From Pseudomonadota bacterium (GTDB lineage Bacteria; Pseudomonadota; Gammaproteobacteria; Nitrosococcales; Methylophagaceae): DNA of 64,000 nt. The stretch is from NCBI GenBank assembly GCA_030576275.1, contig JALIBN010000026.1:21440-85439 (forward strand), read 5' to 3'. A program made the translations under genes and the position numbers. This document shows positions 40,815-57,906 of this stretch, one piece after another (the first letter of the stretch is position 1; each line of letters opens with the position of its first letter). The notes under the pieces were generated by a model. It ran no database searches, was not told where the DNA came from, and saw only the letters and a program-made list of their open reading frames with translations.

Positions 40815-42662
40815 ATGCAGTGGAGAGATGATTTGGGAAATAAACTTACTGATGATTTCGTTGGCTTAATAATGATAGTTGCAGCCTTGCTTGCTATTTT
40901 CATGGTCGTCACCTTTGATACGCTTGATAACTACAACTCGCGAGCAAGTACGATCGATAAGTCCGCTAGAACGATTGTTAGGTTGCTGACCAATATGCCT
41001 ATGGAGCGGTTTATAAAAAACGATGTTTATAGTAATAGCGTATTAGAGCTCTTATCTCGTAATGAACATAATGCCGATTTAGCCTACGTAGCCAAAGTTA
41101 ACTTGTCTGGCGAATCCTTAGCTTCAGTTACAGTAAAAAATATCATCATCCCTGATATGGTCATTGGTTCTTGGCCGAAACAGGGGGTGTCCAAGTACGT
41201 AGCTGAACAAGGATCAAACAAATACATCGAATATCGTGCACCGATAATGTCAGGCAAAGAGTTAGTGGGGTATGAGCGGGTTGGGTACGATAAGCCTAAA
41301 ATCGAACTCCAATTTTCAGATGTATCTTTCTATGCAAAAATGGCGCTACCGGTATTTTTATTGGTACCTGTTTTTTACCTTATGTTCCGGCGAGAAACCC
41401 GTTCCTTAAGGCAGGTGAGTTCTCAAATACTGTCTTTTATGGATGTGCAGAGCGTTAAACTCGACACCGATAGTGATAATAAGGATATTATCGCTAACTT
41501 GCGTCAATTTGTGCTGACAGTGGGTAAGCAGATGGATGCTCTTAAGAATGAGCAAGCCCAAGCACAAGAATCAACATTGATACTAGGCTATCAAAAGAAA
41601 CGCATCGAATCCGTATTACAGTCATTTCCAGATGCGGTTGTGGTCATGGATGAGAATGGTGCTATTACCTACGAGAATGGAAGACTTCAAGCAGTTATGG
41701 GTCTTCAGCCTGAAGGTATTATAGGTTTAATGCCTAATGAGTGGTGTACTGATGAGCAAGTAATCAATTTACTCTCTAGCTACCATAGCAACATCACTTC
41801 CTCAAAGCGAGTGGAAGTGCTGGAGTTTACACCTGAAGCCATTCCAAATAAAACCATATCCGTTAGTGCTTATCCATTATTTTCCCCTACGGGATTAAAT
41901 ACTGTTTTGGGAACCTTAGTGTTGTTTCATGATATTACTAAAAAAGTATTATTAACTAGCAAGCATGAAGACTTTATCAATCATGTTTCTCATGAGATGA
42001 AGTCACCGCTTAATGTTATTCAAATGTGTGCTGAAACGTTATTGGATAATAATGATGACGATAAAGTTGAGCGAACTCAATCACTTAACATGATTATGGA
42101 TGAAGCTGAACGATTGAACATGTTGGTCTCGACCCTACTCAATATTTCAAAAATTGAATCAGGACATCTGACGCTTAATAAACAGCGGGTGAGACTCGGC
42201 GATCTTATTAAAGACACCTTTGAAGATATGGTTAGTACAGCCGAAATAAATCAAGTTAATTTCAAACTTGGATTGCCTAGTACTATAGGTGCTGTATCAA
42301 TAGATAAGGACTTGGTCCGAATTGCGTTAAGAAATTTATTGACTAATGCGCTCAAATACTCTGATATCGGTGGAAATGTCACCCTTCAAGTTGATGACGA
42401 TAGTGATAAGTATGTTCTAAGTGTTATCGATGATGGCATCGGTATAGCTGAAAAAGACCTCTTGCATGTTTTTGATAAGTTTTATCGTGCCGATTCAGAT
42501 AAAGTCAGACAACGAAATGGTCATGGTTTAGGTTTATCATTATCTAAAAATATCATTGAGATGCATCAGGGGAGAATTCTGGTAGAAAGTATACTAGGAC
42601 AAGGTACTACTTTCCGTATTATGCTGCCTAAGCAAGCAGTCTTTATAAATGAGATGGGATAA
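40815..42662 (+). CDS. Membrane sensor histidine kinase with PAS domain (HisKA-HATPase)
   Basis: Two TM segments flanking a periplasmic domain; FPDAVVVMDENGAITYENGRLQAVMGL PAS; HVSHEMKSPLNVI H-box; RIALRNLLTNALKYS N-box; GHGLGLSLSKNI. Confidence 0.93.
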   Translation: MQWRDDLGNKLTDDFVGLIMIVAALLAIFMVVTFDTLDNYNSRASTIDKSARTIVRLLTNMPMERFIKNDVYSNSVLELLSRNEHNADLAYVAKVNLSGESLASVTVKNIIIPDMVIGSWPKQGVSKYVAEQGSNKYIEYRAPIMSGKELVGYERVGYDKPKIELQFSDVSFYAKMALPVFLLVPVFYLMFRRETRSLRQVSSQILSFMDVQSVKLDTDSDNKDIIANLRQFVLTVGKQMDALKNEQAQAQESTLILGYQKKRIESVLQSFPDAVVVMDENGAITYENGRLQAVMGLQPEGIIGLMPNEWCTDEQVINLLSSYHSNITSSKRVEVLEFTPEAIPNKTISVSAYPLFSPTGLNTVLGTLVLFHDITKKVLLTSKHEDFINHVSHEMKSPLNVIQMCAETLLDNNDDDKVERTQSLNMIMDEAERLNMLVSTLLNISKIESGHLTLNKQRVRLGDLIKDTFEDMVSTAEINQVNFKLGLPSTIGAVSIDKDLVRIALRNLLTNALKYSDIGGNVTLQVDDDSDKYVLSVIDDGIGIAEKDLLHVFDKFYRADSDKVRQRNGHGLGLSLSKNIIEMHQGRILVESILGQGTTFRIMLPKQAVFINEMG

Positions 42663-43036
42663 TGACTCAAAGAATATTGATAGTTGATGATGAACCCCAT
42701 GTCATTCACGTACTGAAAACTTTTCTTGAACGCAAGGGCTTTTCTGTTTTCTCGGCGCACAACGGTCAACAGGCTCTAGATGTTTATAAAAAGTCTCAAC
42801 CTCATGTCGTAATCACGGATATACAGATGCCTATTATGAGTGGGCAAGCGCTGTGTGAGCAATTATTACACGACTATACGCATGACACTGCTAAACTAAT
42901 CGTGGTGACATCGCGCACAGATATCGCACTACGGTCTTGGGCCAAGAGCTACCCCATGATTGATTTTATAGAAAAACCCCTGAGCATGAGACGCTTAGTA
43001 TCAAAACTTGACGAATTTTTTGTCTTGGCGGTATAA
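42662..43036 (+). CDS. Stand-alone response regulator receiver domain
   Basis: RILIVDDEPHVIHVLKTFLERKGFSVFSAHNGQQALDVYKKSQPHVVITDIQMPIMSG; about 124 aa with no output domain. Confidence 0.92.
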   Translation: MTQRILIVDDEPHVIHVLKTFLERKGFSVFSAHNGQQALDVYKKSQPHVVITDIQMPIMSGQALCEQLLHDYTHDTAKLIVVTSRTDIALRSWAKSYPMIDFIEKPLSMRRLVSKLDEFFVLAV

Positions 43037-43039
43037 GTT

Positions 43040-56118: not shown

Positions 56119-56504
56119 CGTTATTTGCTAAACTGACTATTATAACTGTAATGCTAACAACTTCATTTATGAGCTTAGCTGGAGCGTTACAGCGTGACCC
56201 ATTTCAACGACCTGATTTAAATAAATTAGCAATACAAACGCCAATTATTAATGAGTCTGCTTATTTAGATACGCCTCCTGTGTCATGGCACCCTCGTTTA
56301 AGGGGTACGTTACGTAGTGCTTCTGGTTATTTTGCTAATGTGGATGGACAAGTAATTAAATTGTGGGATACGATTGAGGGTTTTCTTTTAATCGCGGTGT
56401 CTGATAGGACTGCAACCTTTACGAAACAAGCTGAAACGGTAGTTTTGTCGTTGGATGATGATTTTGAAAATGGTATTTATAAGAGTGAAAATGATGCGTT
56501 ATAG
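56115..56504 (+). CDS. PilP/MshK-like periplasmic protein
   Basis: Signal peptide then LQRDPFQRP; RLRGTLRSASGYFANVDGQVIKLWDTIEGFLLIAVSDRTATF. Confidence 0.75.
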   Translation: MTLFAKLTIITVMLTTSFMSLAGALQRDPFQRPDLNKLAIQTPIINESAYLDTPPVSWHPRLRGTLRSASGYFANVDGQVIKLWDTIEGFLLIAVSDRTATFTKQAETVVLSLDDDFENGIYKSENDAL

Positions 56505-57906
56505 CTTTATTGGTCTGTGTTTATTGATGGTGTTTAGCTCGGCAAATGCCGAGACAAGCATAAAAGAAGCTGAGGCTGATGAATTAATGTCGTTGTCATA
56601 TCGGGACGCGGATATATCAGAAATATATGAAGCCTTATCAAGGCAAAATAAAGTCAATATTTTATTGGCTTCAGGTGTTGCAGGTCAAGTGTCGCTTAAT
56701 TTATATGATGTAACTTTGGATGATGCCATTCATATCATCGCTTCTGCGGGAGGATTCGCGGTACAACAACGAAAATCTAGCTACATCATCACACTGCAAG
56801 ATAATGTTGGTAAGTCAGAAAAAAGTGGGCTGACTGAGGTAAGATCATTCAAAGTGCAATACAGTGATGTTACAGATGTAGAAAAAATACTACAAACACA
56901 TTTATCACGCTATGGTTCACTCACTAGTATGCGTGATCGTAAAATGCTGATCGTCGAAGATCAGCCAGAATTTCTTGATCAGATAGAGATGATTTTGAAA
57001 GAAATAGATCGTGCACCTCTTCAGATTTTAATTGAAGCTAAAATTCTCGATATAACACTGACTGATGACGATGAATATGGCATTGATTGGACTCAAACAT
57101 CGAGCGATCGCACCTTTGGTATTACAGGTGCTACAGGTCCATCATCAGGTGGCTTTTTTACCTTACTTAATAATAATATCGATTTAAAATTAAGTGCCTT
57201 GAGTAAAAAGGGTCGTACTAGAACACTATCAACACCTAAACTGCTGGCTTTGGAGAACCACAAAGCTTCGGTTATTATTGGTAAAAAATTAGGATTTAAA
57301 ACAACAACAACAACTAACCAAATCACCACTGAAACAGTTGAATTTATTGATTCGGGTATTATTTTGACCGTGACGCCTTCAATTGATAATTCAGGGCGAA
57401 TTTTATTAGATATTCAACCTGAGGTGAGTGATGGTACTTTAACTGATGGTATTCCTCAGTTAACGACTACCTCTGTGAAGACACAGCTATTAGCGGAAGA
57501 TGGCCAGCCAGTGTTTATTGGCGGCTTAATTAAAGTATTAGTTTCTGAGTCGACAGCGGGTATTCCAATTTTAAGTGATATACCGTTGCTGGGCCGCCTT
57601 TTCTCGAATGATATCGATGGCCGAACCAATACTGAAACAGTGGTTATTATTACTCCGCATATTATTCGAACTGAAAGCGAACGCATGGGATTTACTTCAC
57701 CAGCAAATTTCGCCGAACTTGATCGTGTTGCAGGGGAAAGTGCGGTCAGAGTGAATCAGAAATTAAATCAACAAGTAGATCTAGAATATCCGACTAGGAA
57801 AAATGCTGATACAACGAGCCAAGTTGAAACGAATAAGGCTACAGCGATGGTTAAATATGATGACGCTTGTAAACTAGGTTTCATTATCAATTCAGCTTGC
57901 AGATAA
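56491..57906 (+). CDS. Secretin (PilQ/MshL/GspD family)
   Basis: Signal peptide MMRYSFIGLCLLMVFSSANAE; STN-like domain; QILIEAKILDITLTDDDEYGIDW; STPKLLALENHKASVIIGKKLGF; VFIGGLIKVLVSESTAGIPILSDIPLLGRLFSND. Start set to 56491 rather than 56455. Confidence 0.93.
   Translation: MMRYSFIGLCLLMVFSSANAETSIKEAEADELMSLSYRDADISEIYEALSRQNKVNILLASGVAGQVSLNLYDVTLDDAIHIIASAGGFAVQQRKSSYIITLQDNVGKSEKSGLTEVRSFKVQYSDVTDVEKILQTHLSRYGSLTSMRDRKMLIVEDQPEFLDQIEMILKEIDRAPLQILIEAKILDITLTDDDEYGIDWTQTSSDRTFGITGATGPSSGGFFTLLNNNIDLKLSALSKKGRTRTLSTPKLLALENHKASVIIGKKLGFKTTTTTNQITTETVEFIDSGIILTVTPSIDNSGRILLDIQPEVSDGTLTDGIPQLTTTSVKTQLLAEDGQPVFIGGLIKVLVSESTAGIPILSDIPLLGRLFSNDIDGRTNTETVVIITPHIIRTESERMGFTSPANFAELDRVAGESAVRVNQKLNQQVDLEYPTRKNADTTSQVETNKATAMVKYDDACKLGFIINSACR

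Follow-up and report, generated by a model that had tools for sequence, protein, structure and literature searches.

Gene content and domain architecture of the locus

The window analyzed here is a 64,000-nucleotide stretch of contig JALIBN010000026.1 from a Methylophagaceae bacterium, a placement in line with the Methylophaga and Methylophagaceae names of its MutS relatives (genome assembly 2.37 Mb, 99.98% complete), and at 40815-57906 its open reading frames and Pfam domains delineate 16 genes, all running in the same direction on the forward strand. A T2SSE ATPase, a GspF platform and class III prepilins occur together, which places the locus in the type IV filament superfamily, and it is a member of a conserved, apparently undescribed filament family related to the cholera mannose-sensitive haemagglutinin (MSHA) pilus. 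The family gene order is histidine kinase, receiver, GGDEF/EAL protein, ATPase, GspF, five pilins, a GGDEF protein that is not always present, PilM, PilN, PilO, PilP and secretin, and about 27 gammaproteobacterial loci share this gene content and order over the extent of their contigs. An earlier reading of the DNA, hereafter the first-pass annotation, had described a co-directional run of about 17 kb with these named domains, including a second, GGDEF-only cyclase between the pilins and the assembly genes, and hidden Markov model searches of the open reading frames bore this out gene by gene; the STAS domain on the motor, the Ca-loop repeats in pil4 and the CBM96-like module on pil5 are additions to it.

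The upstream part encodes a membrane PAS histidine kinase (40815..42662; Pfam HisKA, HATPase_c and PAS) with two predicted transmembrane segments and a periplasmic loop, a lone CheY-like receiver (42662..43036; Response_reg, 91 bits), a GAF-GGDEF-EAL protein assigned by Pfam (43040..45208), the motor ATPase (45275..47329) and a GspF/PilC-like inner-membrane platform (47339..48454; T2SSF, 169 bits). The pilin genes follow, namely pil1, the probable major pilin (GFTLVELLIVVIILAILAAIVVPQFA; 48691..49230; GspG-like, with an N_methyl match and an N-terminus conserved in 26 relatives); pil2, a GspH-like minor pilin (49261..49812; N_methyl, weak GspH); pil3, a GspI/PilV-like minor pilin (49809..50267; weak N_methyl, position and family profile); pil4, a GspJ/PilW-like minor pilin (50264..51226; N_methyl); and pil5, a GspK/PilX-like tip pilin (51223..52224). 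The membrane diguanylate cyclase comes next (52598..53788; about five transmembrane segments, canonical GGDEF, 92 bits), and the assembly genes close the locus: PilM-like (53785..54912; PilM_2), PilN-like (54905..55561; PilN), PilO-like (55558..56118; PilO), a PilP-like protein of 129 amino acids (56115..56504; recognized by position and family profile, with no Pfam match) and a short secretin of its own family (56455..57906; Secretin, 141 bits). Most neighbors overlap or nearly abut, the stop of the cyclase gene overlapping the PilM start by 4 bp, and the two larger gaps lie ahead of pil1 (236 bp) and ahead of the GGDEF gene (373 bp); a promoter scan gave no signal above shuffled sequence.

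The motor comprises a STAS domain (residues ~1-115), an MshEN domain (~127-262) and a T2SSE ATPase domain (299-679), as resolved with Pfam, NCBIfam, AlphaFold and Foldseek. The STAS domain scores 31.2 bits against a Pfam cut-off of 22.6, is modeled confidently (mean predicted local distance difference test, pLDDT, 86) and matches SpoIIAA, RsbV and TM1081 in the PDB, with E of ~1e-5 to 1e-4 for SpoIIAA and RsbV. The MshEN domain is of the cyclic di-GMP (c-di-GMP) type found on extension ATPases (NF053729, 56.6 bits, cut-off 38), matches the MshE-c-di-GMP structure 5htl (Foldseek E 4e-10) and contains both of the 24-residue c-di-GMP motifs described for such domains (PMC5013675), so that the c-di-GMP receptor previously placed on the motor is represented by a complete two-motif domain predicted to bind the messenger. 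Gln151 and Gln180 are conserved in all 29 relatives compared, most of which also keep the RLG Arg and Gly in each of the two motifs; this conservation is partly selected for, since the patterns used to scan contigs for relatives were derived from the same motif, and the loci recovered by an unbiased genome search (L205-L214 and L144) also retain both Gln residues. A Ser at the putative STAS phospho-site (Ser66) is found in 26/29 relatives, at a position that we take to align with the phosphorylated Ser of SpoIIAA and RsbV, as the STAS matches of the domain support. Loss of this Ser where the regulators are missing was considered as a rule and rejected: L144 fits it, but L019 and L032 lose Ser66 and yet keep the kinase and receiver. 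No small RsbW/SpoIIAB-type partner kinase was detected in the genome, where every HATPase_c_2 match lies in a frame of at least 429 amino acids, and classical partner switching is therefore unsupported.

The signalling genes exhibit differential conservation. The phospho-acceptor His of the kinase is retained in 21/21 relatives and the DD/D/K site of the receiver in 25/25, and in 26 of the 27 related loci with upstream sequence the kinase-receiver pair precedes the motor, as does a GGDEF/EAL gene or its remnant in 25 of 27; the kinase and GGDEF genes are thus conserved neighbors by synteny. The EAL catalytic residues are intact here and in 23/23 relatives. The GGDEF site of the same protein reads GGDDF here, and Lys or Arg replaces the Glu in 9/23. 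Because the EAL site is invariant and the GGDEF site often broken, the protein is most simply read from its residues as a phosphodiesterase, which is most likely its role; of the synthesis and breakdown of c-di-GMP formerly ascribed to the locus, synthesis by this protein is doubtful. In the membrane cyclase encoded separately, the GGDEF motif is intact in 10/10 cases, and among relatives with a visible pil5-PilM interval about half carry the gene for it. Degeneration of the GGDEF site in the GGDEF/EAL protein was also compared with the presence of the separate cyclase, and no clear pattern of complementation was found among the relatives. Several relatives encode one to three HDOD-like proteins, recognized by eye, in the interval from pil5 to the cyclase/PilM block (L130:4115-6895, L131:14498-15358, L133:5693-6553 and L209:17272-18315); these are a possible extra regulator. 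RAYT-like (REP-associated) transposase genes, also recognized by eye, occupy the pil5-to-assembly interval in two Woeseiaceae (L132:4422-5138 and L136:7778-8503).

The five pilin-like proteins noted earlier are all present, and the fifth carries an additional domain. In the structure model, pil5 begins like a prepilin but lacks Glu5, continues with a long helix and a pilin sheet, and then forms a beta-sandwich whose best PDB matches by Foldseek are the chondroitin-sulfate carbohydrate-binding module (CBM) 8wab and the alginate CBM96 7vbo, and the protein scores 68.5 bits with the NCBIfam DNRLRE model (cut-off 34). Alginate is a ligand of CBM96, to which DNRLRE proteins are related in sequence (PMC9971899). 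Relatives of pil5 range from 311 to 1678 amino acids, and 8/8 of those scanned contain one or two CBM96 domains, with laminin-G (LamG) lectin domains as well in 3/8. From its domains and its model, pil5 resembles a sugar-binding adhesin placed at the tip of the filament, and its counterpart in relatives is often a giant lectin. The modular pilins PilB and PilC of S. sanguinis likewise join a pilin module to a domain for adhesion or glycan binding (PMC8179133, PMC9934059), whereas here a GspK/PilX-type pilin is joined to CBM96 (and to LamG in relatives) in a diderm, secretin-dependent system. The acidic DxDxDG loop repeats of pil4 occur in 21/21 relatives and probably bind Ca. Two consecutive pil5-like reading frames of 783 and 390 amino acids were observed in L130:497-3966 and may represent a tip protein that was split or duplicated.

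Distribution and phylogeny of the family

The family is hosted by Methylomonas, Methylobacter, Methyloglobulus, Crenothrix, Thiodiazotropha, Woeseiaceae, a Rhodocyclaceae metagenome-assembled genome and other Gammaproteobacteria. Of 387 gammaproteobacterial genomes searched independently for each, 16 gave a motor and 16 a secretin, and 15 genomes gave both (hypergeometric P 7e-25); of the two genomes that break this co-occurrence at least one does so at a contig end (L215). The two halves of the locus are divergent in the Methylobacter loci L015 and L137. In IQ-TREE analyses of the ATPase and of the secretin, the family and MSH form two distinct clades, each with 100% support; the relationship between family and MSH is not firmly resolved in these trees. 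Among 29 genomes of the same genus the motor was found in one, namely the host, so the locus is sporadic and was probably gained horizontally or lost repeatedly.

A survey of type IV filaments left 884 systems as 'generic' (PMC6668835), and the family may be among them, as a candidate assignment. Neither a description of the family nor a report of STAS joined to a pilus or type II secretion system (T2SS) ATPase was found in the open-access literature, subscription journals and preprints lying outside that search; a search of 5.8 billion proteins gave 15 clusters with the STAS-MshEN-ATPase fusion, which appears new to the open literature searched. EmbRS of Rubrivivax was considered as a described relative and ruled out, as only polysaccharide clusters are involved. 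The locus adds to the bacterial type IV filaments a family that is separate and recurrent, in which a sensor, c-di-GMP enzymes, a c-di-GMP-reading motor and a predicted glycan-binding tip are encoded together, a linkage kept across several orders (methanotrophs, methylotrophs, Woeseiaceae and Thiodiazotropha).

Proposed function and alternative explanations

The locus is best read, with a probability of roughly two in three, as encoding a secretin-dependent, c-di-GMP-gated adhesive pilus for glycan surfaces, similar in function to MSHA and belonging to a separate family. The kinase and receiver would set the local balance of cyclase against phosphodiesterase, and c-di-GMP bound to MshEN would switch the motor to extension, as c-di-GMP binding does for MshE of V. 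cholerae (PMC7096442). The pilins would be processed by the lone genomic prepilin peptidase, and a filament primed by pil2-pil5 would leave through the secretin and display the CBM96-like pil5 tip, which could then attach to acidic polysaccharides of algae, biofilm or particles, a possible mechanism for the attachment of such bacteria to polysaccharide particles. An unlinked PilT would retract the filament, as it does for MSHA. In the least certain step, the STAS domain would most likely dock the motor to a regulatory partner, for which the candidates are the receiver, a Ser kinase, the GGDEF/EAL protein and the cyclase. The system's role, previously given as unknown, is narrowed to adhesion because the tip is lectin-like.

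Several observations weigh against this adhesive pilus. The pil5 protein of the window is short (333 amino acids), matches Pfam Disaggr_repeat only below cut-off and has no match to PF24517, which is reached only in relatives, and the mean pLDDT of the tip model is 75. Moreover, the stand-alone cyclase is missing from about half of the complete relatives, and L144 (L144:3715-15883), of the same class, has no kinase, receiver or GGDEF/EAL gene while keeping the motor, here without the STAS Ser, the pilins and the assembly genes, from which in-cis signalling is considered common but not obligatory.

Every tested component scores below the model cut-offs of the MSHA, T2SS and type IVa pilus (T4aP) systems, the first-pass annotation having called the locus like T4P, MSHA and T2SS but fully matching the gene order of neither MSHA nor T2SS, and the possibility that it is an ordinary MSHA or Tad locus failed on scores, gene order and trees (for the TadA-family ATPase, TIGR03819, 46 of 373 bits). 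It is unlikely, though the strongest of the competing explanations, that pil1-pil5 form a periplasmic pseudopilus of T2SS type, in GspG-H-I-J-K order, that is controlled by c-di-GMP and pushes folded proteins out by way of the secretin: the pilin order is indeed G-H-I-J-K-like and GspE and GspF are the best-scoring models for the motor and platform, yet GspE (580/630 bits), GspF (275/424) and GspD (186/351) all stay below the equivalog cut-offs, separate PilM, PilN, PilO and PilP replace GspL/M/C, and a lectin module on the K-like pilin, which reaches 1678 amino acids in relatives, fits a surface tip better than a pseudopilus. With T4aP the locus shares a PilM-N-O-P-secretin block and PilB- and PilC-like proteins, and its PilB (559/676 bits), PilQ (196/284) and PilM (72/133) scores fall short of the T4aP cut-offs. 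A pilus for DNA uptake or twitching would draw on the type IV filament machinery and a PilT available in the genome; it is very improbable, as the genome already holds a full T4aP set (PilBCD, PilTU, PilMNOPQ), no second ATPase of the superfamily, retraction ATPase included, was seen in any family locus, and the tip is lectin-like.

A divergent but true MSHA pilus locus is also improbable. Like the MSHA genes of Vibrio (mshI-Q), the locus combines an MshEN motor with predicted c-di-GMP binding, PilM/N/O/P-like and secretin genes, several minor pilins and a predicted tip adhesin, relies on a PilT and a prepilin peptidase borrowed from elsewhere (PilT and MshE: PMC7096442), and its secretin groups with MshL and one further secretin at 83% support. 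However, the secretin scores 136.7 bits with the MshL model (TIGR02519, cut-off 250.2), and no MshL match at E<=1e-60 was found genome-wide; the gene order differs, and no protein of the locus matches the ExeA/MshM-like AAA protein (the rest of the genome was not searched for MshM), an mshM-like gene being mandatory in the MSHA model of PMC6668835. The locus also differs in the STAS domain on the motor, the kinase-receiver pair and c-di-GMP enzymes, and the CBM96-type tip. Its ATPase and secretin fall outside the MSH clade, the two clades not being recovered as sisters in the ATPase tree, and at least four genomes (G068, G097, G127 and G156) carry both MSHA and the family system.

In the adhesive pilus, STAS may be what links the motor with a cyclase or phosphodiesterase of its own, by analogy with the STAS proteins HsbA and BgrV and the STAS-like SiaC, which control diguanylate cyclases (PMC8457831) and suggest a local cyclase or phosphodiesterase docked on the motor. 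A fuller version is offered tentatively, as a one-in-several possibility, in which STAS would be the dock for the locus cyclase or the GGDEF/EAL phosphodiesterase, with either Ser66 phosphorylation or the receiver acting as the switch, and c-di-GMP would be made and removed at MshEN; if true, the pilus motor would draw on second messenger produced for itself and take input from its own kinase. The pairs HsbA-HsbD, BgrV-BgrR and SiaC-SiaD similarly place a STAS or STAS-like protein near c-di-GMP enzymes, and the conserved STAS Ser of the family agrees with this arrangement; unlike them, STAS is here fused to a pilus motor, in a genome with no small RsbW-type kinase. Since the gene set is linked, local versus global c-di-GMP signalling is testable with few gene deletions.

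Functions encoded elsewhere and flanking regions

The prepilin peptidase and PilT, reported earlier as missing from the locus, are indeed encoded elsewhere in the genome, and 'self-contained' was too strong a description as the locus has to borrow both functions. One prepilin peptidase gene, the only one in the genome, adjoins PilB/PilC, and PilT/PilU together with a complete PilMNOPQ set are encoded away from the locus, at T4aP loci; the MSHA pilus of V. cholerae is retracted by PilT (PMC7096442). A PilB-like ATPase with MshEN was also observed beside a PilT-like gene, by dnaE, at G000:C32 ~82800-85200 (L167:6560-9329), with no platform or secretin adjoining.

The locus lies downstream of a tRNA-Lys gene, from which the kinase is separated by 1.9 kb of apparently degenerate sequence (38930-40815). 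The minus-strand translation of this interval resembles tyrosine recombinase fragments by eye (ICSQLGHSDLTMLSKHHGRWI; LGHQGPKMLQIYDRKKAVV); as for an island insertion at tRNA-Lys, this recombinase-like debris gave no Pfam or NCBIfam match. No exact empty site was found in the relatives, where the two flanks lie in different contexts, and the GC content of the locus (0.399, against 0.41 in the rest of the window) is uninformative on transfer. Just downstream, at 60041-64000, the open reading frames outline the start of a second operon like that of ATP synthase, with genes for the beta, epsilon, small membrane and a subunits, which resembles a Na+-type N-ATPase.

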